This document shows positions 543-14,789 of a stretch of 47,028 nt of DNA, in pieces. The stretch's first letter is position 1, and each line of letters starts with the position of its first letter. Origin of the DNA: an uncultured Lachnospiraceae bacterium. GTDB lineage: Bacteria > Bacillota > Clostridia > Lachnospirales > Lachnospiraceae. Made by a program: the position numbers and the translations under genes. Below the pieces are notes generated by a model. That model was not told the origin of the DNA, did no database searches, and was given only the letters and a program-made list of their open reading frames with translations. Location of the stretch: positions 1 through 47,028 of the forward strand of contig CAKRFY010000021.1 in NCBI GenBank assembly GCA_934320895.1, read 5' to 3'.

Positions 543-1172
543 TTACTTTGTACCAAAAATTCTATCTCCTGCATCACCAAGTCCTGGACATATGTATGCA
601 TCTTCATTGAGTTCTCTGTCGAGATGTCCTACATATATCTGTACATCCGGATGTGCCTCATGCAGTACCCTCACACCTTCAGGTGCTGCTATAATACATA
701 AAAACTTTATATTTTTACCACCACGTTGTTTTATAAAATCAATCGCAGCTTTAGCAGAACCACCTGTGGCAAGCATAGGATCCACTACTACCACCTGTCT
801 CTTCTCTATAGTATCTGGAAGTTTGCAGTAATATTCTTCTGGCTGATGTGTTTCTTCGTTTCTGCAAAGACCTATATGACCTATCTTGGCAGTAGGCACT
901 AACGCAGTTATTCCGCCTACCATACCAAGACCGGCACGAAGTATAGGTACTACTGCAAGTTTTCTTCCTGCTAACATTGGAGTCTTACATGTTTCTATAG
1001 GTGTTTTTACCTCAACATTCTCTGTCGGAAGATCACTAAGTGCCTCATATCCCATAAGCATAGCAATCTCCTCAACCAGTGCTCTAAACTCATTTGTTCC
1101 CGTCGTTTCATCCCTAAGTCTCGAAATTTTGTGCTGTAACAAAGGGTGATTTAAAATTTTTACGTTTTCCAT
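543..1172 (-). CDS. upp: Uracil phosphoribosyltransferase
   Basis: This 209-residue protein makes UMP from uracil and PRPP in the pyrimidine salvage pathway in the cytosol. The PRPP-binding signature [14 protein letters not shown] lies near residues 127-140, and the uracil-binding C-terminal segment with [12 protein letters not shown] is present. Length matches the family (about 208-210). The ATG is preceded by GAGG eight bases upstream. It lies 64 bases downstream of the aldo/keto reductase gene on the same strand with no clear terminator between, so it may be cotranscribed with it. Identification is firm; the operon link is inference. Confidence 0.97.
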
Positions 1173-1236
1173 TTCTACCTCGTTTCTATTTTATTTTTTT
1201 ATAACATACTACTATTATGCGTAATAATATATCTTA

Positions 1237-2358
1237 TTACTCAAAGTATCCAGCTACCTTCTTTAAATTCTCTATTATAGGAAGATGCTGTGGACAGACT
1301 CCTTCGCATTGACCACACGCTATACATTCGCTTGCTTTTCCAAAACTCTGTGTAAGTCTGTTATAATATTCGCCCTGTGGTGTCCATCCCTTGTCTTTTG
1401 CCTCCTGTTTATCGGCATTATAAAGTGAAAAATATTTAGGAATTGCAATCTTTTTAGGACATCCGTCCGTACAATACGAACATCCTGTGCATGGAATTTC
1501 TATATTACCATTTATAATTTGCGCTGCCTTTTTCACCATCTTGATTTCCTCTTCATTCAATGGTTTAAAATCAGCCATAAAACTTGTATTATCTTCAAGC
1601 TGTTCCATATTACTCATTCCACTTAAAACCATCTTTACATTATCAAGGCTGGCAACAAATCTTATCGCCCATGATGGGATAGACATATCTGGTGCATACT
1701 CCTTAAACATTCTTTCAACAGAATATGGTACATTTGCCAGGGTTCCACCTTTAACCGGCTCCATAACCCATACTGGCACACCGTGTTTCTTTGCAACTTC
1801 ATAACATTTTCCTGACTGTATCGCATTGCTGTCCCAGTCAAGATAATTTATCTGCAACTGTACAAATTCAACCTCTGGATGTTCTGTAAGTACCATATCA
1901 AGTACATCTGCAGTATCATGGAAAGAAAAACCAACATGCTTTACAAGACCCTGCTTTTTCTTTTCCTGAAGCCATTCAAAACACTCAAGCTCTTTGTATA
2001 TCTTATAATGATCTTTTCCAACATCATGAATCAGATAATAATCAAAATAATCCACGCCTGTTTTTTCAAGCTGTGTATTAAAGATCTTATCTCTGTCTTC
2101 TTTTGTTTTTATAAATCCTGCATGAAGCTTTGTGGCAATAGTATACTTATCTCTTGGATATCTGTCAACAAGTGCTTTTTTTACGGCATTTTCACTTTCA
2201 AATCCACAGTACATCCATGCCGTATCAAAATATGTGAATCCCCTTTCAATAAACTTGTCAACCATCTTTTTAGTAAGTTCAATGTCTATGCTTTTGTCAT
2301 CATTTGCATCTAATAATGGCAGCCTCATAAGACCAAAACCAAGTTTTTTTTCTCCCAT
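1237..2358 (-). CDS. Aldo/keto reductase with C-terminal 4Fe-4S ferredoxin domain
   Basis: A 373-residue cytosolic oxidoreductase with an NADP-binding TIM barrel (roughly residues 1-270; start [14 protein letters not shown], catalytic-type segment FDTAWMY) and a C-terminal bacterial ferredoxin domain with two Cys clusters, [12 protein letters not shown] and [12 protein letters not shown]. Such fusions are common in anaerobic Clostridia and the substrate is unknown. The start at 2358 was chosen because GAGGA lies five bases upstream; in-frame starts further upstream run into the structured leader. The leader contains a hairpin and possible pseudoknot described separately. It probably runs on into upp. 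Confidence 0.93.
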
Positions 2359-2460
2359 AAAAATCCTCATTTCTGCACACATTTTTTGTGCATATCAAGT
2401 TTGTGTCAAGTGTGCGCAGACACAAATCTTGGGTGTGAAAAATAAAATTTTTCACACTGT
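2359..2460 (-). promoter_or_regulatory. Structured leader of aldo/keto reductase with possible pseudoknot
   Basis: On the minus strand there is first a hairpin of GTGTGAAAAAT with ATTTTTCACAC (2458-2434), then a hairpin with arms TTTGTGTC and GACACAAA (2426-2419 and 2407-2400) whose loop contains GCACAC (2415-2410). That loop is complementary to GTGTGC at 2380-2375, directly before the GAGGA ribosome binding site. The GTGTGC can instead pair locally with TGCACA (2392-2387), so two exclusive folds exist. Sequence and pairing are shared with the mscS and chemoreceptor leaders. No known riboswitch class was recognised. Confidence 0.5.
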
Positions 2461-2546
2461 TTCTACTGTCTTGCATAATCATCTTTGGCTGTTGTATTGA
2501 ACCCAAAGTTTTATCTGTATTTATGTACAATTACATACTATTATAT

Positions 2547-2575
2547 ATTTTATCATCTTTTTTTTATATCGTAAA
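2547..2575 (-). promoter_or_regulatory. Candidate promoter for aldo/keto reductase
   Basis: On the minus strand TTTACG (2575-2570) and TAAAAT (2552-2547) are 17 bases apart. The -35 box is weak but the spacing is ideal. It would give a leader of about 180 bases containing the structured element. Confidence 0.4.
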
Positions 2576-2719
2576 CTAAAAAGTTACTGCGTGACACAAT
2601 ATATGTTTTCTGAATTTAGGGCATTTCAAATGCATATTTCAGTTTAATTTTCATAAAAATATAAAAAAATATATTTAGGCATAATTGCACTTATGTTTCT
2701 AAATCTTTAGGAGAGTATT

Positions 2720-3016
2720 TTGAAGATTAAAGACTTTTTTGACAAATTAAAATCTCATTATTCTGAAGAAAATTCTACATTATATCATTTTCTAAGAACG
2801 GGCATATGTATACTTTCAACTGTATGTCTCGCCAGCATAGCCGTTGCTTTTGTATTTTCAGGAAACTCTTCCAATGTTTCAAGACAAGCAATGTCATCTA
2901 TTATCTCAGAACGAAAACTTCCAATATACTGCGTTGATACAGATAAACCCAAAATAGCCTTATCATTTGATGCAGCATGGGCGGATATCATTCTGATGTA
3001 TTTTATAAGAAAGTAG
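2720..3016 (+). CDS. Polysaccharide deacetylase, N-terminal half (split by inversion)
   Basis: TTG start with AGGAGAG five bases upstream. The first 86 codons encode a membrane anchor (about residues 28-47) followed by the start of a PdaB-like NodB deacetylase domain, ending in SFDAAW, which carries the first catalytic Asp. After the TG at 2978-2979 the frame leaves the family (ADIILMYFIRK) and stops. The rest of the gene lies on the minus strand at 13055-12444. Joining the two at the shared TG gives FDAAWGNEDT and a 289-residue protein. As read here only a 98-residue anchored stub is made. The family removes acetyl groups from peptidoglycan or another polysaccharide; the substrate is not known. 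Confidence 0.85.
   Translation: MKIKDFFDKLKSHYSEENSTLYHFLRTGICILSTVCLASIAVAFVFSGNSSNVSRQAMSSIISERKLPIYCVDTDKPKIALSFDAAWADIILMYFIRK
2958..3000. other. Left recombination site (attL-like) of invertible segment
   Basis: The proposed crossover is TG at 2978-2979. To its left is deacetylase coding sequence ending GATGCAGCA. To its right (2980-2998) is the arm GGCGGATATCATTCTGATG, which matches the arm at 13056-13074 at 11 of 19 positions when both are read outward from the TG. This is what two half-sites of a serine-recombinase attP would look like after exchange with an attB. Confidence 0.7.
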
Positions 3017-3103
3017 AATATATATTTCAAAAAATTTACAAGGTTCATCCCACCTCTTAAAATAAGTGGATTTTTGCCTATAACAACAGAAAGGATTTTA
3101 TTT

Positions 3104-3280
3104 ATGAAATATGATAACGAAATAACTATTCTTCGTGAATATAAAAAATTATATGACAAAAAAACTTTGCTTAAAAGAATCGTACATATCGAATCTGGAA
3201 TATCACCTGATATCTATCGTCCATCAGAAAATATAGATTTTGCAGAAAAACTTTTATCTGAAAATAATAAAAAAAATTAA
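3104..3280 (+). CDS. Small protein upstream of serine recombinase, unknown function
   Basis: A 58-residue ORF starting MKYDNEITILREYKK, with AAAGGA eight bases before the ATG. It is lysine-rich with no membrane segment and is likely mostly helical. It lies between the attP-type arm at 2980-2998 and the recombinase (70 bases before its start), on the same strand. I do not recognise the family. Its position would suit a recombination directionality factor, but it could equally be a fragment of a longer lost gene. In-frame starts further upstream exist without a good ribosome binding site. Confidence 0.45.
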   Translation: MKYDNEITILREYKKLYDKKTLLKRIVHIESGISPDIYRPSENIDFAEKLLSENNKKN

Positions 3281-3350
3281 AAATAGTATTTATTTAGATA
3301 TGCAGATATCCCATATCAAATTTATAATCATTAAGAATGGAGACTCTACA

Positions 3351-4919
3351 ATGAATAACATATCCAAGCACGAAAAATACTGGGCGCTATATGTAAGATT
3401 GAGCCATGAAGATGGTGATAAATCAGAAAGTCTCAGTATTTCCAATCAAAAACTAAAACTTATAAATTTTATAAAGCAAATGCCTGAAACACCTTCATAT
3501 AAACTTTATATCGATGATGGTTTCAGTGGAACAACATTTAATCGTCCCGGTTTTCAAAATATTTTAAGTGATATTAAAAATAATCTTATTACTGGAATTA
3601 TTGTAAAAGATCTTTCACGGCTTGGCAGGAACAGTCCCAAAACAAGCTATTTTATACATGATTTTTTCCCATCATACAAAATTCGTTTTATTGCCATTGA
3701 TGATAATATTGATAAAGATTTTTATGATATCGATACATCAGATGATATGATAATTGACATAAAAAATATGTTTAACGGATTTTATCCACGTGATATAAGC
3801 AGCAAAGTCCGTTCTACATTTCGTGCAAAGCAGTCAGCCGGACAATTCATAGGTGCTTTTGCCTGCTACGGCTATAAAAAATCACCTGATGACCACAATA
3901 AACTTATAATTGATGATACAGCCGCAGCCGTTGTAAAAAAGATATATACACTTTATCTTGCAGGTACAGGCCAAAATACAATTGCAAAAATACTTAATAA
4001 AAACAATATACCATGTCCATCTGAATACAAAAAATTAAATGGACTTAATTACAAAAACGGAAACAAACTTGATCATACGACATACTGGACATACAGTACG
4101 ATAAGAAATATCCTCAAAAATGAAATGTACACTGGCTGTATGGTACAAAACAAATCATTTCGTACATTGTGCAGCAAAAACGCATCACCTCTTCCAAAAG
4201 ATAAATGGATAATCGTTCCTGATACACATGAAGCCATTATAGATAAAATAACGTTTAACCGTGTCCAGACACTCATTACAAAAAATATACGTCATACTGG
4301 CTTAAATCACAATGTTCATCTGCTTGCAGGTATTATAAAATGTGGCGACTGTGGCAGAGCTATGGTAAAAACCACAAAAAACGGTAAAAATATATTTGTA
4401 TGTGGCAGTTACAACAGATATGGCAAAACAAAATGTTCAGCTCATCGTATTTATGAATCAACAATTTTAAAAATTATAACCAGTGACTTTAACAATATAT
4501 TAAAAGAAGCAGACAATTTAAACCTATTTTTACATAAAGAACTCTCTTTTATAAACAAAAACTCATACAACAATAGTCTCAATGAACATATTCAGTATAA
4601 GATCAACAAACTTGAACAAAAGAAAAAAATGTATTTTGAAGATTACAATGAAAATCTTATCACAGCTAAAGAATACTTTACTCTCGTAAAACGCTGTGAT
4701 CTACAGATTTCCAACTTAAATACTTCTTCTCAGATTTCAGAAGATACTACTGCAAATATTTATACTAAGACATATACACATGTCATAAATGAAATGCTTG
4801 AAAAAAACATGATATCTGAGCCTGACAGAATAGTTATAACCCAAATGATCAATTATATATATATTTATAAAAATAATACTATTAAGATAATATACAATTT
4901 TGATAACGGCTTAGTTTAG
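3351..4919 (+). CDS. Large serine recombinase (resolvase/TnpX-type)
   Basis: A 522-residue site-specific recombinase that cuts DNA with a Ser nucleophile and joins attachment sites. The N-terminal resolvase domain (about 10-165) has YVRLS with Ser18 as the likely nucleophile and the conserved DLSRLGRNS motif. A recombinase domain (about 180-300) follows, then a zinc ribbon with CGDCG and a later Cys pair (about 327-360), and a coiled-coil stretch near 400-450, all as in TnpX/TndX/SpoIVCA relatives. The ATG at 3351 has GGAG eight bases upstream. All expected parts are present, so it should be active. It ends two bases from the convergent SseB-like gene and lies 370 bases from one inversion breakpoint. 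Confidence 0.95.
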   Translation: MNNISKHEKYWALYVRLSHEDGDKSESLSISNQKLKLINFIKQMPETPSYKLYIDDGFSGTTFNRPGFQNILSDIKNNLITGIIVKDLSRLGRNSPKTSYFIHDFFPSYKIRFIAIDDNIDKDFYDIDTSDDMIIDIKNMFNGFYPRDISSKVRSTFRAKQSAGQFIGAFACYGYKKSPDDHNKLIIDDTAAAVVKKIYTLYLAGTGQNTIAKILNKNNIPCPSEYKKLNGLNYKNGNKLDHTTYWTYSTIRNILKNEMYTGCMVQNKSFRTLCSKNASPLPKDKWIIVPDTHEAIIDKITFNRVQTLITKNIRHTGLNHNVHLLAGIIKCGDCGRAMVKTTKNGKNIFVCGSYNRYGKTKCSAHRIYESTILKIITSDFNNILKEADNLNLFLHKELSFINKNSYNNSLNEHIQYKINKLEQKKKMYFEDYNENLITAKEYFTLVKRCDLQISNLNTSSQISEDTTANIYTKTYTHVINEMLEKNMISEPDRIVITQMINYIYIYKNNTIKIIYNFDNGLV

Positions 4920-4921
4920 CA

Positions 4922-5350
4922 CTATATATTTCCAAGAATAATATTTATCAATGTCTTGTCTAACATGATAGTCCTGTTCCACGGATTTAATATTATACCA
5001 TCTATTTCATCAACTTTTAATACCGAATTGAATAACTGTCCTATGTCAGTAAGAAATGTCGATTTAACCCCGTTTGCGCCTTTCATCTCCTCATCAAAGC
5101 TTGTAAAAGCAGTCCACCAGTTAAGTCCGTCTGCCGTTTTTACAACACTTATATTCATTTGCTGTGAGCCAAAAGCAGGCTCTACAGCAATTATAAACTG
5201 TCCATTCTGTTTCATTCTCTTTCTTATTATAGTTAATGTATGTGCAAGCATCTCTTGTGTAGCTTCATTCTGAAGTTCCTTTATAGCTTTCTCTACCAGT
5301 TCATTTCCAATAAGGCCTTCGTCCATCTTATTTGTAAAATTGTCTTTCAT
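4922..5350 (-). CDS. SseB-like family protein
   Basis: A 142-residue soluble protein with features of the SseB N-terminal domain family: WWTAFTSFDEE near the middle and GIILNPWNRTIML near the C-terminus. Function in Firmicutes is unknown. The ATG at 5350 has AGGA nine bases upstream. It starts 30 bases after the stop of the hybrid kinase gene and is probably the last gene of the DUF3592, solute-binding, kinase operon. It converges with the recombinase with only two bases between the stop codons. Confidence 0.75.
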   Translation of the reverse strand: MKDNFTNKMDEGLIGNELVEKAIKELQNEATQEMLAHTLTIIRKRMKQNGQFIIAVEPAFGSQQMNISVVKTADGLNWWTAFTSFDEEMKGANGVKSTFLTDIGQLFNSVLKVDEIDGIILNPWNRTIMLDKTLINIILGNI

Positions 5351-5380
5351 CAGCAATTTCCTTTCAACATCTATTTTTTA

Positions 5381-8300
5381 TTATCGTATATACTTCTGCA
5401 TGACTTCCATAATTTTTGAAAGATCCAATGGTTTAGATAAATGGGCGTTCATTCCACTTGCAAGTGATTTTTTTACATCCTCTTCAAAAGCATTTGCACT
5501 CATTGCAATAACAGGTATTTTTTTACAGTCATCACGCTCAATGCCCCTTATCTGCCTTGTAGCCTCCAGTCCATCCATCTTTGGCATCATTATATCCATA
5601 AAAACAAGATCATACTTCCAAGGCTCTGAAGCTTTTATCATGTTAACCGCCTGTTGTCCATCAAATGCAGTATCAACTACTATTCCCTCATCTCTAAGAA
5701 TCGTACACATTATCTCGCTATTTAACTCATTATCCTCAACAACAAGCACATGTTTTCCCTTAAGATCAACAATTTTCTTTCTATCCTGTTTATCTTTTTC
5801 TTCCGTCTTAGAAACACTAAGCTTTATCTTAAAACTAAATGTACTGCCTTTTCCAAGTGTACTCTCAAGGTTGATACTACTTCCCATCATGTGTATAAGC
5901 CGGCTGCTTATCGCCAGACCAAGACCTGTTCCCTGCCTGTATATACTGTCATAATCCTTAACCTGCTCAAAACTTCCGAAAACACGCTTTTGATTTTCCT
6001 CACTTATACCTATACCATCATCTGTAACAGCAAAGTATAATTCTGAAACAACTCCATCTGTGTACATTTCCTTTACGGTCAACGTTATATTTCCATCGTC
6101 TTTTGTATATTTCACAGCATTTCCAAGAAGATTTATCAAAACCTGTGTAATTCTTAGTTCATCTCCATAAAAAGAACTGTTTGTCAATTCCTCAATCTTT
6201 TCATAATGAATATTTTTTTCTGAAAATCTCACATTCATCAGATCACTAATCGAATCAAGTGCTTTACTAAGATTAAATTCTTCTTCCATAAGCTGCATTT
6301 TTCCACTCTCTATCTTTGACATATCAAGTATATCATTTATAAGTCCCAAAAGATAATGCGATGAATTCTTAATCTTATTTAAGCAATCTGAAACAGTTTT
6401 TCTCTCCCTATTCTTTTTAATGGCAATTTCTGTCATCCCAATAATACCATTCATAGGAGTCCTTATCTCATGCGACATACGTGCTAAAAAATCAGATTTA
6501 GCCTGTGCAGCTGAATCATGTTTGTCAAGATTTATACGGTTCTGTATAATGGTTCCTATTTCCTGTAGATTCTTTTTTTCCGTATCATCATCACAAATAT
6601 CTGATGACAGACCTAGCAGAAATATACTTCCAAAATACTTTCCATTATCCTCCATGTTTATAATAACACCATCCTCTGCTCCATATCTCTCGGCTATCTT
6701 ATGATTTGCCGGTATACTTTCGCTTACAGACCTTACCGTATCAAGTTCAGTAACTTTATTTAACTCCTGACACTCCCGTTCAGTGCATCTGAATATCTTT
6801 ACATTTTTATCATTTTTTGCCTTCTTTTTACTATCTGCCCAATCGTAATCTACGCTTATAGCCATATCTTCTTCGCTAAAAGCTGTAATCAAAAAATTCT
6901 CCAATTGATATCGCTGCATAAGTTTTAATACAAATACATCTAAAATTGTCGCAAAATTTCCACCTTTGTCAAATAGATTAAGTGCTATTGAAACCATCGA
7001 CATTTGCTCTATATAAAGATATGACGCTATCTCTCCAAACTCTGCCTCATCACTTATTTTCTGGTATTTTTCATTCAAATCCTGATATACAGAATACAGA
7101 CAACCTTTTTCTTTAGCAAATCTCATTGCGGCTTGTGCCTGCTTTATCATTTTTTCTGTTGAAATATCTTTGTCATCCAAAGCTATTCCAACTTTAAAAC
7201 TTAATTCAATATATCTCTGACTTGTAATTTCTGAAAATCGTATGCTCATCTGTTCAAGCATTTCCTTTACTTCATCAAGTGTTACACCAACGCATAAGCA
7301 AAGAAGCTCATCTGAACCTGCTCTTACACAAACTCTCTGAAATATCTTATGATTATCACAACTTTCTAACATTATGTATGATAATTTTTGTAAAATTATA
7401 TTTCCAAACACAAGGCCGTACTGTTCATCAATATTCATGAATCTATCAATATCTATTATAAATAATATACTATCTGTCCTGACTTTTCTTAGTTCTTTTA
7501 TTGCCTCTTTTCCTGTGTCCAAATGATACAGTGCAGTAAGCATATCATACTTTTTCTTATTATTTTTTTCTATTTCAAGAAGTTTCTGCTGATTTATATC
7601 TCTCAGATAACCTACTACTTTATTTTCATCACCACTATTATCCTTAAGCAGACTTCCACAAAGATTTATCCACCTGTACTCCTTATATTTTGACATAAAA
7701 AGCCTGAATTCAATATTCATGTTTCCTATATCATTCCGGAATCTATCAATTACCATAGATCTGTCTGCTGCATGTATTTTTAAAAGTAATGGATTTTCAC
7801 AATTATCAGAACAGTCCCATCTGCCATCATACCCAGAACTGTTCACTATTTCAAGAATTTTGTCCTTTATCTCATATGTAAAAAATATATCTTTTGAACT
7901 CTCCACTGCTATCCTATATCGCTCTTTTTCATCAAGCAGCTGTTCCTCCGTATTTTTCTGTGCATCCGTAACTTTTTCCACTATATCATGAAGTTCATCT
8001 ATTTCCATTATATTAGATGCTTTAAAGCCATGAATTCCATCCGTTCCTCCTCTCACACTCTCCATAAGACGATAAACGGGTTTTGTAACATATTTTATAA
8101 GCAGCATGACTGTAATAATTCCAATAGCCGCACACACAACAATGGCTATTATCACTCTTGCATACACTTGTTCACCTAATGCAAATATCGAATTTTGAGA
8201 TACAAAGCCATACAATGCCCATCTTGTCTTTTCATATGGCGCATTGTTTATATACAATTCAAGATTACTCTTTACCGCATATACTTTCTTTTTTCCAACA

Positions 8301-9280
8301 TTTACACCATCAACTTCATACAACTTTCTAATCTTTTTATATTTTCTGATTCTGCACTTTTCTTCCCTTGCAACAGCATCATATAATGCTCCATTACCTG
8401 TAAGAGTTTCAAATCTCCCATCTTTCCCTTGTATCACAAGTGCATATCCTGAATTAAGTTCTCTGTCTAAATCTGAAGCCGGAAAAAAAGTATTTATATA
8501 AGATAATGAAACCTCCGTTCCAACAATCCCATAGATTTCATTTTCAAAAATCAAAGGCACTGAGTAAGTAATCATTTTATGATTATCCATATAGTGATCC
8601 TCGAGAATAAATGGTTCAGACCAATATCCAAGATTCTTCATATCAGTATCCTTATTTTTTTGTGCCGCAATAAAAGGTTTATAAAAAAAATCATCTGCTT
8701 TCCGATTTCCAGATCCCTTAAAATTAAAATCTGTAGTCCAAGCAGTATCCAAAGTAATATTTTCAATGCGAGCAATCCCTTTACTTCCTCTTTCCACCAA
8801 CAGTTCAGCATTATTCGCCGTTTTATTCTGAGGATCGGAATCCCTTACAAAAAAGCCATTATAATCGGCCTCATATCTAATATCTTTTTTATTTGCAAGC
8901 ACGATAAATATTCCGGAACTGTTTTCATGCTGTAATGTTGAAAGCATGCTTTTGAATATCCTTTTCAGATACTTTTGCTGAGCAGAAGATGAAGTTAAAA
9001 ATCTCTTAATGTTCATATGATTTTCGTTTAGTACTTTTTTTAATGTGGCATTCAGTTCATAGCTTTCTCTGCTTATTCCACCCCATTGTTGATTCATTGC
9101 ATGCTGTAAAACAACCTGACGATTTTCTATAATATGGCAATCCATATTTACTGCATTTTTTTCCAGATTATCTTTTACACTGCTAAAAAATAACATAGAG
9201 AATGGTACTATTCCCTGAAAAAGGACTATTCCAAGTAGCGGGATCAAAAATATACGAAGTAATCTCTTTTTTCTTTTCAA
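5381..9280 (-). CDS. Hybrid sensor histidine kinase with dCache, PAS, degenerate GGDEF, GAF-like and receiver domains
   Basis: A 1299-residue membrane sensor. TTG start with AGGAGG six bases upstream. Order: TM1 (about 10-32), extracellular Cache-type sensor (about 40-365), TM2 (about 372-396), linker, PAS (about 455-575), GGDEF-like domain (about 590-745) whose signature reads AGSDE instead of GGDEF, GAF-like region (about 765-905), HisKA with SHEIRTPMNG (His937), ATPase domain with NLLGNAVKY, DDGIGIS and GTGLGLAIS, and a receiver with Asp1229 in VFMDIMMPKMDG. The GGDEF domain is unlikely to make c-di-GMP. The gene starts 38 bases after the stop of a solute-binding lipoprotein gene, which suggests that protein presents the ligand. 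No output regulator is adjacent. Confidence 0.93.
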   Translation of the reverse strand: MKRKKRLLRIFLIPLLGIVLFQGIVPFSMLFFSSVKDNLEKNAVNMDCHIIENRQVVLQHAMNQQWGGISRESYELNATLKKVLNENHMNIKRFLTSSSAQQKYLKRIFKSMLSTLQHENSSGIFIVLANKKDIRYEADYNGFFVRDSDPQNKTANNAELLVERGSKGIARIENITLDTAWTTDFNFKGSGNRKADDFFYKPFIAAQKNKDTDMKNLGYWSEPFILEDHYMDNHKMITYSVPLIFENEIYGIVGTEVSLSYINTFFPASDLDRELNSGYALVIQGKDGRFETLTGNGALYDAVAREEKCRIRKYKKIRKLYEVDGVNVGKKKVYAVKSNLELYINNAPYEKTRWALYGFVSQNSIFALGEQVYARVIIAIVVCAAIGIITVMLLIKYVTKPVYRLMESVRGGTDGIHGFKASNIMEIDELHDIVEKVTDAQKNTEEQLLDEKERYRIAVESSKDIFFTYEIKDKILEIVNSSGYDGRWDCSDNCENPLLLKIHAADRSMVIDRFRNDIGNMNIEFRLFMSKYKEYRWINLCGSLLKDNSGDENKVVGYLRDINQQKLLEIEKNNKKKYDMLTALYHLDTGKEAIKELRKVRTDSILFIIDIDRFMNIDEQYGLVFGNIILQKLSYIMLESCDNHKIFQRVCVRAGSDELLCLCVGVTLDEVKEMLEQMSIRFSEITSQRYIELSFKVGIALDDKDISTEKMIKQAQAAMRFAKEKGCLYSVYQDLNEKYQKISDEAEFGEIASYLYIEQMSMVSIALNLFDKGGNFATILDVFVLKLMQRYQLENFLITAFSEEDMAISVDYDWADSKKKAKNDKNVKIFRCTERECQELNKVTELDTVRSVSESIPANHKIAERYGAEDGVIINMEDNGKYFGSIFLLGLSSDICDDDTEKKNLQEIGTIIQNRINLDKHDSAAQAKSDFLARMSHEIRTPMNGIIGMTEIAIKKNRERKTVSDCLNKIKNSSHYLLGLINDILDMSKIESGKMQLMEEEFNLSKALDSISDLMNVRFSEKNIHYEKIEELTNSSFYGDELRITQVLINLLGNAVKYTKDDGNITLTVKEMYTDGVVSELYFAVTDDGIGISEENQKRVFGSFEQVKDYDSIYRQGTGLGLAISSRLIHMMGSSINLESTLGKGSTFSFKIKLSVSKTEEKDKQDRKKIVDLKGKHVLVVEDNELNSEIMCTILRDEGIVVDTAFDGQQAVNMIKASEPWKYDLVFMDIMMPKMDGLEATRQIRGIERDDCKKIPVIAMSANAFEEDVKKSLASGMNAHLSKPLDLSKIMEVMQKYIR

Positions 9281-9318
9281 ATTTTTCCTCCTGAAACATG
9301 ATATTAGATCATGATTCC

Positions 9319-10782
9319 TTATTTTATTGATTCTTTAAGGGCCTTGCAAAATTCCTTATACCATTTGTCATAATTTTTTTCTGATGTATATTTTTTTATA
9401 ACTTTATCTCGATCTTCACCTTTTGCAAGTGCTTTTTCTATCGCCTTTCTATCATTTTGTGCCTTGTCTGATAAACTTGTCTCCAATACATTTCTGGCAT
9501 TGCTTCCGTTTTTAAAATTTTTAGTTGTATAATACTTTGTCTTATTAAAGTCACCTAAAACATTTTTTAAACAGTCATAAGTTTTATTGTTGATCTTTAA
9601 CGACTTTTTGCTGATCACTTCATCTAATGCTTTAACATTATTGGCGGACTTTAAGACAGGCATGTATGCAGATTCACAAACAAACTGCATATTATGCTCC
9701 TTCTGTGTAAACCATTTAAGAAATACACACGATGCATACTCATGCTTCTTATCAGACTTTGTCACTGCCATGTCTGCTCCCTGTTGCACTTTATAATTTT
9801 CTCCTCCAGCCATAACAGGTGCCGGAAGCACCTCATAGTCTATCTTATATCCTTTATTGTCATCCTCGACTTTGTCAGGGAAATACATTGCCGACATCGA
9901 AGAACCCGTATAAGCAAGAATATCACCAGTTTTAACATCGTCAGACCTGAACTTTCCAAGTGCTGTAAAATATCCATTTATATAAGGGACATAATAATTT
10001 TCCCATAAACGTTTTATAAGCTTTTTGTCCGTATTAAATTTTACTTTTCTATCTTTAACCTCAAAAATATCACTACCAAGCTGTCTCATACCTATAACAA
10101 AATAATTCGACATTGAATCTCTGCCATAAAATGCTTTTCCATCATCTGGTTTGTCAGGAGTCTTTTTATCGGTCCATTCATAATAACGCTTTGCAACTTT
10201 TACGACACCCTCGATAGTTCTTAGCTCATCAAGCGATGAACCAGTCTGTTTTGCAAACGGCTCCCAATCTGTTTTATTTATCATAAGACTCTCTGTTGAT
10301 TTTGCAACTGGAAAAAAGTATAACGCATTATCACCATTCAGATATCCCTCTTCTATATATGAATCAACATACTTTTGCAATTCTTTTTTTGAAAAATATT
10401 TTGTAAGATCAACAAGTTTTCCTTTCTGCTGTGCTTCATACGCAGTATCAGCATATGAAGAAAAGATATCAGGAAGCTTATCAGCTCCTACCTTTCCTTC
10501 TATAGAATCAGAAATAACCTTTTCAAGATCAGCAACTGTTCCCTGACTGATTCCCTCTACATTTATTCCAAGTTCCTTACCTTCTGTAGAATTAAACTCA
10601 TTTACCAGTTCATCGAACGCAGCCTGCTGACTACCATTATAATAATGCCATACCCTTATTGAAATAGGATTCTCAGGATCTAACTTAACACTTTTGTTTG
10701 CACTCTCTTTTTTTGCACCACATCCTGTCAAAATAGCCATTATCATCAAAATAACGCACAAATTTCTAAATATCTTTTTCAT
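9319..10782 (-). CDS. Extracellular solute-binding lipoprotein (ABC family 1), orphan
   Basis: A 487-residue protein with a lipoprotein signal (MKKIFRNLCVILMIMAILTGC, Cys21 after the LTG lipobox) and a sugar-type family 1 solute-binding fold, seen in segments such as IRVWHYYNGSQQAAFDELV and GADMAVTKS. Family members usually deliver a sugar or oligosaccharide to an ABC permease, but no permease or ATPase is nearby. Instead it lies 38 bases upstream of a Cache hybrid kinase and 19 bases downstream of a DUF3592 gene. A role as ligand-binding partner of the kinase is inferred from this context; the ligand is unknown. Confidence 0.9.
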   Translation of the reverse strand: MKKIFRNLCVILMIMAILTGCGAKKESANKSVKLDPENPISIRVWHYYNGSQQAAFDELVNEFNSTEGKELGINVEGISQGTVADLEKVISDSIEGKVGADKLPDIFSSYADTAYEAQQKGKLVDLTKYFSKKELQKYVDSYIEEGYLNGDNALYFFPVAKSTESLMINKTDWEPFAKQTGSSLDELRTIEGVVKVAKRYYEWTDKKTPDKPDDGKAFYGRDSMSNYFVIGMRQLGSDIFEVKDRKVKFNTDKKLIKRLWENYYVPYINGYFTALGKFRSDDVKTGDILAYTGSSMSAMYFPDKVEDDNKGYKIDYEVLPAPVMAGGENYKVQQGADMAVTKSDKKHEYASCVFLKWFTQKEHNMQFVCESAYMPVLKSANNVKALDEVISKKSLKINNKTYDCLKNVLGDFNKTKYYTTKNFKNGSNARNVLETSLSDKAQNDRKAIEKALAKGEDRDKVIKKYTSEKNYDKWYKEFCKALKESIK

Positions 10783-10801
10783 TGGTATTCCACTCTCTTT
10801 T

Positions 10802-11224
10802 CTAATATTTTGCTGTAAAATAACACAACAATATTCCTAATGCTCCAATTGCTGCAAAACCAATTCCTATAGATATAAGCCATACCCATACCGGTATAGA
10901 ATCACTGACTACCCAAAAATCAGATGGCTTTTTTGCATTAAATCGTATCTGAACTGAATCACCCTTTTTCCATACATCTTTCGAATATCCTATCTTTGAC
11001 TCTTCCTGTACTATGCAATTTCCATCAAAAAAAGCAAATGTAGGATAATAATTATCGTTATTCTCACCATCGCCTATTTTATGTATCTCTTCTACAGTAC
11101 CTTTGGCTATTTCCGTACATTCAATTTTCTTGCGCTCCATCTCTTTCTTTGCTTTTATTGATAAATACACCAGTACAAGTGACGCAGTAAAAAACGTCAC
11201 CATAAGAAATATACCTATAATCAT
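10802..11224 (-). CDS. DUF3592-like membrane protein
   Basis: A 140-residue protein with a membrane segment at about 3-22, an extracytoplasmic or cytoplasmic beta-rich middle (GTVEEIHKIG to KPSDFWVV) and a second membrane segment at about 113-135. This two-helix layout with a short ligand-like domain is typical of DUF3592. It is the first gene of the four-gene minus-strand operon, with a good promoter at 11303-11275 and CGGAG upstream of the ATG. Function unknown. Confidence 0.7.
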   Translation of the reverse strand: MIIGIFLMVTFFTASLVLVYLSIKAKKEMERKKIECTEIAKGTVEEIHKIGDGENNDNYYPTFAFFDGNCIVQEESKIGYSKDVWKKGDSVQIRFNAKKPSDFWVVSDSIPVWVWLISIGIGFAAIGALGILLCYFTAKY

Positions 11225-11274
11225 TTGAAAACCACTCCGTTCTAATGTTTATTTTCGCATTTGCCCTTGCGTAC

Positions 11275-11303
11275 AGTATACATCTTAGACCTTTAAAAAT
11301 CAA
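11275..11303 (-). promoter_or_regulatory. Promoter of the DUF3592-SBP-kinase-SseB operon
   Basis: On the minus strand TTGATT (11303-11298) and TATACT (11280-11275) are separated by 17 bases, 50 bases before the first gene. Because it lies inside the invertible segment, this operon keeps its promoter in either orientation. Confidence 0.65.
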
Positions 11304-11377
11304 ATTTATGACCAGCAAAAAATGTCTGTTTGTTGCTTAAAACTATATATCACTCTTAATACGGACATAAAAATAAT

Positions 11378-11428
11378 GGTGTTATGAGCAAGTAGCAGAG
11401 TGGAGTGCAAATATCCACTTGACTACCA
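11378..11428 (+). repeat. Dispersed hairpin repeat, copy A
   Basis: Contains AGCAAGTAGCAGAG followed by a stem AGTGGA/TCCACT with a TGCAAAT-type loop. It shares the AAGTAGCAG core with three other copies (15019, 15750, 46825). Relative to copy D both stem partners have changed (C-G to T-A), so the pairing is kept. It sits between the DUF3592 promoter and the ribU terminator. Confidence 0.7.
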
Positions 11429-11471
11429 TAAAAAAATAATGCAGATTCAAAATTTTACTGAACCTGCATCA
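11428..11471 (-). terminator. Rho-independent terminator after ribU
   Basis: On the minus strand ATGCAG-x-TTCA pairs with TGAA-x-CTGCAT around a GTAAAATTT-type loop, followed by TATTTTTTTAT. It begins eight bases after the ribU stop codon. Confidence 0.8.
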
Positions 11472-11478
11472 TCTTTAA

Positions 11479-12114
11479 TTAGTCCTCAACACGCATCATA
11501 GGTGCTAGAGGTACATATAAAAGCCATGCGCACACAACACATATCACACCTTTTAATAAGGTAAACGGCACATTAAATACTATAAGGGCCTGTAATATAC
11601 TGTGTACTCCAGGGAAAATTGCCTGATATGCTTTAAGTATCATCTCTTTTGGCATAAAATTATAATATATAGGATATACAAAGAAATAGTTTGATACGAT
11701 ACTAAGAAGCGACATTGCTACTGTTCCTGTAAGCGAAGCTAAGATAGCCCCTTTCTTATCACTTTTCTTTTTATATATAAGTCCTGCTGGTACTACAAAC
11801 GCACACCCAAGTATAAAGTTTGAAATCTCTCCTACAAACATTGTATTTGTGGCAAATGAATGTAATACATTTTTTACGAGACATATTAAAACTCCACATG
11901 CCGGACCGTATATGAAACTTCCAAACAACGCCGGAAGATCTGATATATCAAGCTTGATAAATCCCGGCATAAATGGTACCGGTATCTCCATATACATAAG
12001 AATAACCGCTATAGCGGCAAGCATTGCCGTAAGCGTCATCTTCTTTATATTACCTCTTTTGCGTGTGTCTTTTGACCCATTTGTGACATGTAATGTTTTT
12101 CCTGCTGCTGCCAT
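11479..12114 (-). CDS. ribU: Riboflavin ECF transporter substrate-binding component RibU
   Basis: A 211-residue integral membrane protein with about five to six helices. It binds riboflavin and works with a shared ECF energizing module that is not encoded in this window. The family is indicated by the segments MTLTAMLAAIAVILMY, GFIKLDISDLPAL and the overall length. The start at 12114 is chosen because AGGAAGAGGAA lies directly before it; an in-frame start at 12171 would add 19 residues but lacks such a site. An FMN riboswitch with a terminator stem precedes it and supports riboflavin as substrate. Confidence 0.92.
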   Translation of the reverse strand: MAAAGKTLHVTNGSKDTRKRGNIKKMTLTAMLAAIAVILMYMEIPVPFMPGFIKLDISDLPALFGSFIYGPACGVLICLVKNVLHSFATNTMFVGEISNFILGCAFVVPAGLIYKKKSDKKGAILASLTGTVAMSLLSIVSNYFFVYPIYYNFMPKEMILKAYQAIFPGVHSILQALIVFNVPFTLLKGVICVVCAWLLYVPLAPMMRVED

Positions 12115-12210
12115 TTTTCCTCTTCCTTTCTTTTTTACAGAAAATTCTCTGAGGTTTCTGCGCACAGCCATAATGGAGCATTATCTGTTTCAAGTAACAG
12201 CCTTCCTACA

Positions 12211-12247
12211 AAATAAAACCCTGAGATACTAAAATCTCAGGGTTTTA
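12211..12247 (-). terminator. Expression-platform terminator of the FMN riboswitch
   Basis: On the minus strand AAAACCCTGAGAT pairs with ATCTCAGGGTTTT and is followed by TATTTTG. It lies between the aptamer and ribU, so FMN binding probably ends transcription here. Confidence 0.85.
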
Positions 12248-12277
12248 TAACTCCAATTATAACAATGCAAGTTAAAA

Positions 12278-12390
12278 TCTTCTCTCATCCAGACTATACT
12301 GTTGGTATCGGAATTTCACCGATTCGGTCGATGCACTCGATTCGCGGACTTTACCGCCAGTGGGGAATCTCACCCCGCCCTGAAGAATTT
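12278..12390 (-). ncRNA. FMN riboswitch (RFN element)
   Basis: Read on the minus strand the conserved RFN blocks are present in order: CTTCAGGGCGGGGTGAGATT, CCACTGGCGGTAAA, the AGTCCGCGAA-type segment, GATTCGGTGAAATTCCGA and CAGTATAGTCTGGATGAGAG. It controls the riboflavin transporter ribU through the terminator at 12247-12211. Its promoter lies at 12435-12407. Confidence 0.95.
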
Positions 12391-12406
12391 TCTTTATTTT
12401 ACGCAT

Positions 12407-12435
12407 ATGATATCATATGTTTACAAGTTGTGCAA
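12407..12435 (-). promoter_or_regulatory. Promoter of the FMN riboswitch-ribU transcript
   Basis: On the minus strand TTGCAC (12435-12430) and TATCAT (12412-12407) have a 17-base spacer. It begins nine bases after the deacetylase stop codon, with no terminator between, so deacetylase transcripts would also reach the riboswitch. Confidence 0.7.
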
Positions 12436-12443
12436 GTATATTT

Positions 12444-13055
12444 TTAATACTGTGGCGTGGATGTCGCATTTGTTTTACCTATTTTGTGCTGCCGACCTTC
12501 TGTATCCATCTCATAATTTTTTGTATAAATAAGTTCAGACATTTTTACAAATTCAAAGCCTTTTTCCTTCAAGCTATCTATCAACTTTGGAAGTGCCTCA
12601 GCCGTATATTTTGCACCGTTGTGGCAAAGTATTATCGAGCCATTTCCAAGATGTTTGTGATTTAAAACTGTGGTTAGGATTGAATCTACGCCGTAATTCT
12701 TCCAGTCTAGGCTATCTACATCCCACTGTATCGCATGGTACCCACACTTTTCAGCACTTTCAACAAGTGTATCATTATAATCTCCGTATGGTGGTCTGAA
12801 TACTTTCATGTCGTATCCTGTGAGTTTTTTTACCTTGTTATGTACTGTCATTATCTCATCTTCACATTCAGCAGCAGAAATAGTTGACATCTGTTTATGA
12901 TTCTGACTGTGATTGCCAAGTTCGTGTCCTGCTTTATAAAGTGCTTTTACATCATCAGGATATGCATCTACCCATCCACCTGTCATAAAAAATGTTACAT
13001 GAACATTTTTTTCCTTAAGTACCTTTATTATCGTCTGGGTATCTTCATTCCCCCA
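12444..13055 (-). CDS. Polysaccharide deacetylase, C-terminal half (split by inversion)
   Basis: From the crossover at 13055 the minus strand reads WGNEDTQTIIKVL and on through most of a NodB deacetylase domain: the His pair in NHSQNH, the RPPYGDYN motif, the DVDSLDWKNY segment and the ILCHNG motif. It has no start codon of its own near the breakpoint; the first ATG (12986) is internal and lacks a good ribosome binding site. Joined to 2720-2979 it gives a 289-residue membrane-anchored enzyme with all catalytic motifs. In this orientation it is probably silent. It is followed directly by the FMN riboswitch promoter. Confidence 0.9.
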   Translation of the reverse strand, partial: WGNEDTQTIIKVLKEKNVHVTFFMTGGWVDAYPDDVKALYKAGHELGNHSQNHKQMSTISAAECEDEIMTVHNKVKKLTGYDMKVFRPPYGDYNDTLVESAEKCGYHAIQWDVDSLDWKNYGVDSILTTVLNHKHLGNGSIILCHNGAKYTAEALPKLIDSLKEKGFEFVKMSELIYTKNYEMDTEGRQHKIGKTNATSTPQY

Positions 13056-13076
13056 GGGGGCGTGCTTACTAATGAA
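13034..13076. other. Right recombination site (attR-like) of invertible segment
   Basis: The crossover is CA at 13054-13055. To the left lies the deacetylase C-terminal half. To the right, 13056-13074 (GGGGGCGTGCTTACTAATG) is the second attP-type arm, matching the arm at 2980-2998 at 11 of 19 positions. The site ends about 20 bases before the chemoreceptor stop codon. Confidence 0.7.
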
Positions 13077-13094
13077 ACTTTATTCACCTGAGCA

Positions 13095-14789
13095 TTATGC
13101 AGGATTCTTAATAAGTTCAAATTTGCCAATAAGTTCATTAAGACTCTCAGACTGAGCTGACAATTCCTCACTTGTTGCTGATGTTTCCTGTGCTGATGCT
13201 GAATTACTTTGCACAACGCTTGATATCTGTTCAATTCCCTTCTCTATCTGACCAAGCATTTCCGCCTGATTCTTTGAAACCTCACTTGACTGTTTTGATG
13301 CTTTTGCAAATTCTGTCATCATTTCAAGTATATCATTTAATGCATCTACTGTTTTAATTGTAATATCATTTCCATGTTCTACTTCTACAAGTGATTTTTC
13401 TATAAGCTCCCTTGTATTTACTGCCGACTGGGCACTGTCTGCGGCAAGTTTGCCAATCTGATTTGCAACTACTGCAAATCCTTTACCCTGCTCTCCTGCT
13501 CTTGCCGCCTCTATTGATGCATTTAATGAAAGAAGATTTGTCTGTGATGCTATATCCTCTATTGCACCTATAATCTTCTGAATTTCCTGCGATGTAGCAC
13601 TTATCGTTTCCATTGCACTTGTAAGCTCTGTTAGATTGTTTTTACTTTCTTCTGCATGGTTTACTGCTGTTAATACTGACTGATATGATTCTTCTGCCTC
13701 ATCAGCAACCGTTGTTGCCATGTTACTTACATTTTCAACTGTTGCTGTAAGTTCCTCAACTGCACCTGCCTGTTCTGTTGCACCTTCTGCAAGTACCTGT
13801 GCACCTTCTGCAAGCTGCTCTGAACCTGCTGCTACCTGATCTGATGCCTCATTTATTTTTGTAAGTGTAAAACTCAGATCTGTTCTAAGTGATCTCATAG
13901 CCATTATAAGACTATTGAACTCTCCCACATATTTATCTTCAATCTTTGTTTTAATATTGAAATTTCCTCTTGCAATCTCGCCAAGAAGATTTCCAGCATC
14001 TATTATGACCTCATGTATAAACTTACATGCATCTTCAAAATTTGCAGCAAGACTTCCAAGTTCATCATCTGATTTATAACCAATTTCAACATCAAGATTT
14101 CCAGCTTTTAATTTTTCTGTGGCATCTTCAATCTCTTTAATAGGTTTCATAAGTACATTTACTATACCCTTTGATATATTCATAGACAATATAACACTTA
14201 CTATGCCGATTACTATCATTAGTATAAGACATACAAGACCAACGCCTCTTGATATGCTGTACTGCATTTTTGCCTCTTTTTGTGCATTATCTGAAATTTT
14301 ATGTAAAAGTGTCTGTATTTTTTCAACAGATGTATTGTAATCACCATTAAACAGCTCTAATGCTTTATCATTATAGTTATTTGAAGCACATAATACAAGA
14401 TTTTCACGAAGCGATTTCAGATTTGAAAATTCATCTGATAATTCATTTGTGACATTCTTATCACTATATGACTTTACAAGGAAATCGAGATTCTTCTTAA
14501 TATTGTCACCTGTTGACTCAACTTTATCTAAATACGCTTTTGTTTTTTCATTATCATCTGTTGTCATTGACCATAACACCATCTTACCTGAATACTGAAG
14601 GTCTTTTCTTATCTCCATTGAAATGTTAGTATTTTTGTATGCTTCTTTGTAAAATTTGCGCATATCATTGTTCATGATAGAAATAGAAATAATAGCTACA
14701 ATAATAGCTACAAGCAATGTAGCAAGTGTAATTCCAAATGCCGTTTTTAACTTACCTTCCACTTTCTGTTTTTCAAAATATTTTTCCAT
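13095..14789 (-). CDS. Methyl-accepting chemotaxis protein
   Basis: A 564-residue transmembrane chemoreceptor. TM1 at about 16-38, a four-helix-bundle ligand domain (about 40-190), TM2 (about 193-216), HAMP (about 215-270) and a long signalling coiled coil whose tip reads IASQTNLLSLNASIEAARAG near residues 410-430. It senses an unknown ligand and controls CheA. GAGGA sits directly before the ATG, after a terminator-like hairpin leader. Its stop codon lies 40 bases from the right inversion breakpoint. In the flipped orientation the recombinase would follow on the same strand. Confidence 0.97.
   Translation of the reverse strand: MEKYFEKQKVEGKLKTAFGITLATLLVAIIVAIISISIMNNDMRKFYKEAYKNTNISMEIRKDLQYSGKMVLWSMTTDDNEKTKAYLDKVESTGDNIKKNLDFLVKSYSDKNVTNELSDEFSNLKSLRENLVLCASNNYNDKALELFNGDYNTSVEKIQTLLHKISDNAQKEAKMQYSISRGVGLVCLILMIVIGIVSVILSMNISKGIVNVLMKPIKEIEDATEKLKAGNLDVEIGYKSDDELGSLAANFEDACKFIHEVIIDAGNLLGEIARGNFNIKTKIEDKYVGEFNSLIMAMRSLRTDLSFTLTKINEASDQVAAGSEQLAEGAQVLAEGATEQAGAVEELTATVENVSNMATTVADEAEESYQSVLTAVNHAEESKNNLTELTSAMETISATSQEIQKIIGAIEDIASQTNLLSLNASIEAARAGEQGKGFAVVANQIGKLAADSAQSAVNTRELIEKSLVEVEHGNDITIKTVDALNDILEMMTEFAKASKQSSEVSKNQAEMLGQIEKGIEQISSVVQSNSASAQETSATSEELSAQSESLNELIGKFELIKNPA

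Follow-up and report, generated by a model that had tools for sequence, protein, structure and literature searches.

In a 47,028-nucleotide stretch of DNA from an uncultured Lachnospiraceae bacterium (GenBank assembly GCA_934320895.1, contig CAKRFY010000021.1), here called the window, a pdaB-type polysaccharide deacetylase gene is cut at the Trp codon of SFDAAW-GNEDT, leaving one half on each strand with about 10.07 kb between them. The same inverted split, with recombinase attachment (att) half-sites at its junctions, is found in three species, both gene halves are under selection, and relatives of the element sit in pdaB in direct orientation. Judged from the sequences, it is fairly probable that pdaB is held as inverted halves at attL and attR and that a large serine recombinase (LSR), likely together with a small protein, inverts the interval in sporulating cells and thereby rejoins the gene. 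The features that enter into this reading, including one small open reading frame (ORF), are:

2720..2980, plus strand: pdaB N-half, ending at the Trp codon of SFDAAW, delimited by alignment with intact orthologues
12444..13055, minus strand: pdaB C-half, beginning with the Trp codon and ending at the stop, with PF01522 and TIGR02764 matches
2954..3003, plus strand: attL, comprising the B half (in pdaB), the core TG at 2978-2979 and the P' half, recognized by dyad symmetry with the P arm about TG
13030..13079, minus strand: attR, comprising the P half at 13056-13079, the core TG at 13055-13054 and the B' half in pdaB, recognized by dyad symmetry and arm conservation
3104..3280, plus strand: small ORF, 58 aa, inferred candidate recombination directionality factor, with homologues upstream of related LSRs
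3354..4919, plus strand: LSR, 521 aa, with PF00239, PF07508 and PF13408 above cut-off

The split pdaB gene in three species

The N-half ORF starts with TTG at 2720 and continues past the split to a stop at 3016 (2720-3016, plus strand); its Trp codon TGG occupies 2978-2980, the TG at 2978-2979 being shared with the other half. The C-half reads on the minus strand from the Trp codon TGG at 13055-13053 to a stop at 12444-12446. Coordinates and strands confirm the initial annotation, according to which the N- and C-terminal halves of a deacetylase face each other across about 10 kb, and a scripted join at the shared TG gave the open frame of 289 residues that it had predicted from reversal of the interval. 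The joined protein matches the whole TIGR02764 (PdaB) profile (positions 1-191) with 220.6 bits, compared with 168 bits for the C-half ORF alone. It aligns end to end across the joint, as one high-scoring segment pair, with 34 of 34 intact orthologues, which rules out two unrelated genes that face each other. The orthologues were drawn from 42 loci, eight of which were dropped for want of the string SFDAAWG, L030, L041, L085 and L087 having a variant motif and L061, L062, L074 and L082 no joined motif. Rather than the unrelated genes that the annotation had considered, 13 of 28 genomes of the genus carry the whole gene with the halves in the expected order. We take the enzyme to have a NodB fold, with the catalytic Asp (SFD, motif 1) in the N-half and the remaining motifs in the C-half; divided in this way, neither half alone should be active.

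An LSR pattern scan of a genome collection revealed two further loci, in Eubacterium sp. MSJ-13 (L001, 76%) and Butyribacter intestini TF01-11 (L002, 64%). In both, pdaB is split at the identical codon and in the inverted layout of the window. The two junctions of B. intestini lie on one scaffold, about 5.2 kb apart, without the kinase and binding-protein genes of the window's interval. The MSJ-13 halves are on two contigs, both of which end inside the gene for an energy-coupling factor (ECF) transporter component, at points that map to window positions 11825 and 11820, and the gene order is therefore taken to be that of the window. In a tree of LSRs (23 rows) the three sequences form one group with 100/100 support, beside the LSRs of directly oriented pdaB elements.

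Neither half has acquired a stop or a frameshift, at a synonymous divergence (dS) near or above 1. The ratio of non-synonymous to synonymous substitution rates (dN/dS, by the NG86 method) is 0.03-0.05 in the C-half (dS 1.5-2.0) and 0.16-0.22 in the N-half (dS 0.7-1.3), and the corresponding ratio of proportions (pN/pS) in the N-half is 0.22-0.35 (one-sided Fisher p 8.7e-9 to 1.6e-7); a maximum-likelihood dN/dS of 0.89 for the N-half of the window and B. intestini pair is an outlier to the other estimates. More telling are the codons next to the joint. In the split form no in-frame ATG, GTG or TTG precedes the first 23 C-half codons of the window, where the first is the ATG at 12986 (codon 24), or the first 17 of B. 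intestini; the test covers these three codons, and rarer starts are still possible. Codons 1-23 nevertheless differ by 10 synonymous and one non-synonymous changes between the window and MSJ-13 (p 3e-8) and by 10 and three between the window and B. intestini (p 6.9e-7). Selection probably acts on the joined gene, and since codons without an upstream start in the split form are selected at the protein level, the joined gene would be made in some cells.

The att sites, the recombinase and the small ORF

From the elements in pdaB, 16 left and 17 right junctions were extracted and anchored on the Trp codon; both arms are available for 15 elements. The pdaB sequence ends beside the Trp codon at every junction, four left junctions keeping GGGAAT six bases further, as in pdaB. 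The outer arms of the 15 elements are dyad-symmetric about TG at 202 of 300 positions; when the centre is moved, to any of eight alternatives, the count is 57-91. With cognate arms paired, 231 of 360 positions match, as opposed to 164 in permuted pairs, and in 20,000 permutations the observed total was never attained. Of 24 positions, 13 match in the window and 14 in MSJ-13. Among the three species the P arm is identical at 12-15 of 19 positions and the P' arm at 12-14 of 18; for the adjoining outer stretches the values are 3-8 (of 19) and 4-9 (of 18), such that conservation extends to the edge of the dyad and declines beyond it. Based on the dyad and on the conservation of the arms, the junctions are assigned as the attL and attR of this LSR, mutually inverted and with attB inside pdaB. 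Next to the LSRs of two genomes with intact pdaB (G143, G144), no dyad of at least 15 of 24 positions was found as an intact attP, a threshold that the arms of the window also miss.

The complete LSR that the annotation placed within the interval is present, with Resolvase, Recombinase and zinc ribbon domains, and is conserved among the three species, as are both att arms. All 20 loci that carry an LSR of this group have a homologue of the small ORF upstream of it (16 genomes of the LSR search described below, the window, MSJ-13, G411 and G412), as found with a profile iterated on these same loci; the match in G369 is weak (E 0.024), and an ORF of opposite orientation intervenes in G411. The family, of about 45-60 aa, has a core resembling REYL..YS.EEL..RII.SHL and is linked to this LSR group; beside the more distant pdaB recombinases of G347, G059 and G275 no small-ORF match was obtained. 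The three small-ORF homologues of the window's clade were scanned with Pfam and PHROGs and the others with Pfam or NCBIfam, and none received a name above cut-off. Position, size and linkage make the small ORF a candidate directionality factor; for comparison of size, CD1234 of Clostridioides difficile has 72 aa (excerpt of PMC5025042) and GirX of Bacillus cereus 6.5 kDa (excerpt of PMC5595907). In one locus of this set (L058 in G125, about 7700-7800) a truncated frame precedes the related LSR and small ORF; its end, MLDAGHGG, by eye resembles an amidase_3 motif and perhaps marks another interrupted cell-wall gene.

The order N-half, small ORF, LSR is kept in the window's clade, in G411 and in G420, whose small ORF was identified by eye. 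The N-half ORF of B. intestini extends into the beginning of the small ORF. No terminator-like site was seen between N-half and LSR, and the only one within window positions 2380-5000 lies upstream of the N-half. Given this gene order, the overlap and the uninterrupted path, the pdaB promoter should drive the LSR until inversion replaces it there by the C-half.

The proposed inversion and its alternatives

The best profile for the pdaB-type gene, TIGR02764, is that of a sporulation family. The sigma-E consensus consists of KMATATT and CATAYANT, and these elements, 13-15 bases apart, were searched upstream of pdaB. They agree with an excerpt of PMC3789822. In the window the search found:

2632..2659, plus strand: predicted sigma-E-like promoter pattern GCATATT-N13-CATAAAAA, upstream of the N-half

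The form GCATATT-N13-CATA[A/C]AAA is common to the window, MSJ-13 and B. intestini. A score of 12 was reached in 28 of 57 pdaB upstream regions, whereas 100 dinucleotide shuffles gave 2.85 such regions on average and at most 6, and the reverse strand gave 7; taken singly, the B. intestini pattern is notable (39 of 2000 mononucleotide shuffles reach its score). SpoIVA exceeds its cut-off in 16 of 17 genomes with interrupted pdaB and, among 14 control genomes, only in B. subtilis. The SigK profile matches with at least 270 bits in 15 of the 17, four of them above the curated cut-off, the remaining two being G031 (a 247-bit match and two fragments) and G172 (at most 78 bits); it also has weak matches in 11 of the 14 controls. 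The G031 fragments are on contigs C53 and C59 (residues 107-226 and 24-112), and sigK may be interrupted in this genome as well.

According to the proposed mechanism, a promoter of sigma-E type would transcribe the N-half, the small ORF and the LSR together in the mother cell, and the product of the small ORF would act as the directionality factor that enables the LSR to recombine attL with attR. The resulting inversion would join the N- and C-halves at the TG core, create attP beside the LSR and carry the LSR about 10 kb away from the promoter and into the opposite direction, so that the switch would shut itself off. The arrangement may have originated through an ordinary chromosomal inversion which, with one end inside an excisable pdaB element, turned attR round; from then on recombination would invert host genes rather than excise a circle. 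To the full proposal, a developmental DNA inversion of endospore-formers in which the pdaB promoter, active in the mother cell, drives directionality factor and LSR, which flips 5-10 kb of host chromosome, completes pdaB and limits itself, with no DNA lost and in principle resettable, we give an even chance. The annotation had suggested an invertible switch or a developmental rearrangement by inversion. Inversion is supported, and the developmental version is favoured over free switching because the sites are non-identical attL and attR and the searches found no joined copy; we infer both the flip and when it occurs.

Several observations weigh against this reading. A joined pdaB was found in none of the three genomes and in none of the representatives of four close protein clusters. 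The joined protein stays below the curated TIGR02764 cut-off of 237.4 bits and so does not attain PdaB membership, which is why the gene is called PdaB-type; an intact relative, L028, likewise remains below it with 228.8 bits. The MSJ-13 C-half has an ATG just upstream, which weakens the argument from codons 1-23 in that species, and the dyad is weakest in B. intestini, with 11 of 24 positions. Taken singly, the promoter pattern is not significant in the window or in MSJ-13, where 288 and 428 of 2000 mononucleotide shuffles, respectively, reach its score, and the SpoIVA profile has no match in the MSJ-13 draft. The role of the small ORF is assigned only by its position, and the ORF also accompanies LSRs not found in pdaB, six of the 20 loci not being known to sit there (G144, G154, G029, G143, G178, G125). 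The orientation of the LSR varies in other pdaB elements; a self-limiting design is thus not general.

An old inversion may instead have broken pdaB permanently, leaving the halves as relicts or the C-half with a new function, which we consider unlikely. Every copy found in the window's clade is split, as such an event would leave it, and possible start codons lie at or inside the 5' end of the C-halves. However, relicts would hardly stay free of stops and frameshifts at the dS values given above, with the N-half pN/pS as low as it is, or keep the LSR and both att arms conserved. A C-half of its own would lack the presumed motif-1 Asp, and codons 1-23 are conserved as protein in the window with none of the three start codons before them.

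Quite improbable in our view is reversible phase variation, in which random flipping in growing cells would give a minority with a working deacetylase, unconnected with sporulation. In principle inverted sites, a resident LSR and a linked small protein suffice for it, and selection on the joined gene would follow. Against it stand the different arms of attL and attR, the gene and promoter pattern, which point to sporulation, and the presence of only the split state in the three genomes and in the representatives of the close protein clusters. Four such clusters, with at least 88% identity to the C-half, comprise 273, 1, 146 and 178 members (598), and their representatives have 189-220 aa, i.e. 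are split; among the 120 of 7,992 database matches listed, full-length proteins occur at no more than 78% identity to the C-half and none is a joined copy. That the representatives of all four are split is as compatible with a fixed rearrangement as with a switch kept off during growth, and argues against frequent random flipping.

A false join by a chimera or by assembly of a mixed population, which the annotation mentioned along with a one-time event, has a negligible probability and is ruled out by the agreement of three assemblies, one of them (L002) with both junctions on one scaffold; the one-time event, too, is unlikely, the layout being common to the three and both halves being under purifying selection.

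Direct relatives, interval contents and known systems

Searches of 397 genomes of the family, drawn from a larger group, returned 16 genomes with LSR matches at E <= 1e-120 and 140 genomes with C-half matches at E <= 1e-55. In at least 15 of the 397, pdaB is interrupted (G002, G109, G031, G018, G387, G266, G347, G227, G172, G059, G398, G028, G084, G369 and G275, a list that is not exhaustive), and related LSRs sit in pdaB at the same codon in other Lachnospiraceae. Outside the window's clade the gene pieces lie on the same strand, hence are excisable, in 12 of 12 genomes that have both on one contig (G109, G031, G018, G387, G266, G028, G084, G347, G227, G398, G420, G275). In G275 the cut is at another place in the gene, and in the pdaB inserts of G227 and G398 no recombinase was seen. 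Since the examined relatives outside the clade are direct, the inverted layout seems to be a derived state in a family of elements that intervene in pdaB. The 13 intact loci of the genus, which at the thresholds used have none of the window's neighbours, are uninformative about the ancestral order.

In the 28 genomes of the genus set, pdaB is interrupted or broken in 13 (G001, G002, G411, G412, G420, G402, G399, G421, G414, G422, G400, G194, G423), the calls for G422 and G423 resting on contig-edge fragments; G408 and G416 are in neither count. The breaks occur at more than one site and with more than one kind of recombinase, and pdaB looks like an integration hot spot. Two successive elements with two different recombinases cut the gene in G420 (L147, 518-11043), leaving the N-half, C residues 1-90 and C residues 68-195, all on the same strand. 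In L160-L173 (G402, G399, G421, G414, G422, G400, G194, G423) pdaB is broken near C-half residues 90 and 110-114, and the recombinases next to several of the breaks are no more than distant relatives of the window's LSR. In G347 (L128, L129) 92 kb separate the halves, which share one strand, and the recombinase adjoining the C-half is a more distant one; G266 has, besides the interrupted pdaB on contig C75, a second, uninterrupted pdaB-like gene on C32. A phage origin was considered and set aside: no relative of the LSR or the C-half was found in viral_contigs, in a scan that reaches close relatives only.

Between the halves, the small ORF and the complete LSR are followed by host-type genes on the minus strand, and the right flank outside the interval holds a Na/Pi transporter in addition to the chemotaxis receptor. 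The remaining features are:

543..2382, minus strand: upp and an aldo/keto reductase gene, flanking the interval on the left
4922..5356, minus strand: host-type gene for an SseB-domain protein in the interval, by domain match; also in MSJ-13 and B. intestini
5381..9280, minus strand: hybrid sensor kinase, with receiver and GGDEF-like domains, in the interval; shared with MSJ-13, missing from the B. intestini interval
9319..10782, minus strand: extracellular solute-binding protein, in the interval; shared with MSJ-13, missing from the B. intestini interval
10802..11224, minus strand: DUF3592-like protein (below the Pfam cut-off), in the interval
11479..12171, minus strand: ECF transporter S component, of riboflavin type by its riboswitch (PF12822, PF07155)
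12273..12391, minus strand: flavin mononucleotide (FMN) riboswitch preceding the S component (RF00050, 114.8 bits)
13095..14789, minus strand: gene for a chemotaxis receptor, flanking the interval on the right; same flank in MSJ-13, not here in B. intestini

The elements in direct orientation (G109, G266, G031, G018, G387, G420 and others) share with the window the gene, the codon, the TG core, a related LSR and, where searched, a small ORF of the same family; in contrast to the window, their halves lie on the same strand, such that excision restores the gene. Serine-invertase phase switches such as Hin and Gin invert DNA between inverted sites. From these the pdaB system differs by its LSR, its non-identical attL and attR, the completion of a coding gene and the single state seen. 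With the gene-intervening elements skin, gin, yin and SPbeta/spsM it has in common a split sporulation-related gene with an intact joined frame, a serine recombinase beside the site and inverted-repeat att arms about a short core, but not the direct orientation of attL and attR that leads to excision as a circle, since in all three species the halves lie on opposite strands.

As far as excerpts of the literature go, the known rearrangements of sporulation genes (skin, gin, yin, SPbeta/spsM) work by excision, and excision-type elements are reported in sigK, spsM, gerE, spoVFB and yabG; PMC10747680 and PMC11170972 are among the papers excerpted. In open-licence full-text literature, nothing was found on an interrupted pdaB or on an inversion that restores a sporulation gene. 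According to an excerpt of PMC5025042, the skin element of C. difficile, with LSR CD1231 and factor CD1234, resembles the pdaB system in that an LSR and att sites interrupt a sporulation gene (sigK), the split form carries attL and attR, and joining restores the frame; its small directionality factor has here a candidate counterpart. Skin, in contrast, is excised as a circle and lost, whereas in the pdaB system the sites have inverted orientation, host-type genes lie between them, joining requires inversion and the interrupted gene is a different one. The same source describes that the skin LSR causes inversion when attB and attP are oppositely oriented, and that it requires CD1234 for attL x attR recombination; this is the chemistry that the proposed pdaB inversion would need. 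The gin element in gerE of B. cereus (GirC, GirX; excerpt of PMC5595907) is likewise not a phage, combines a serine recombinase with a small partner and restores a spore gene; unlike the pdaB system it spans 28.6 kb, has direct sites, is excised and resides in a different gene and host.

The pdaB system would accordingly use the recombinase logic of the elements that interrupt sporulation genes, but invert DNA instead of excising it; that the flip occurs, and when, is presumed. If this is correct, the same recombinase machinery can become a loss-free switch that moves host genes, among them a transporter of riboflavin type. Interrupted or broken in nearly half of the genus genomes, pdaB also stands out as a hot spot.

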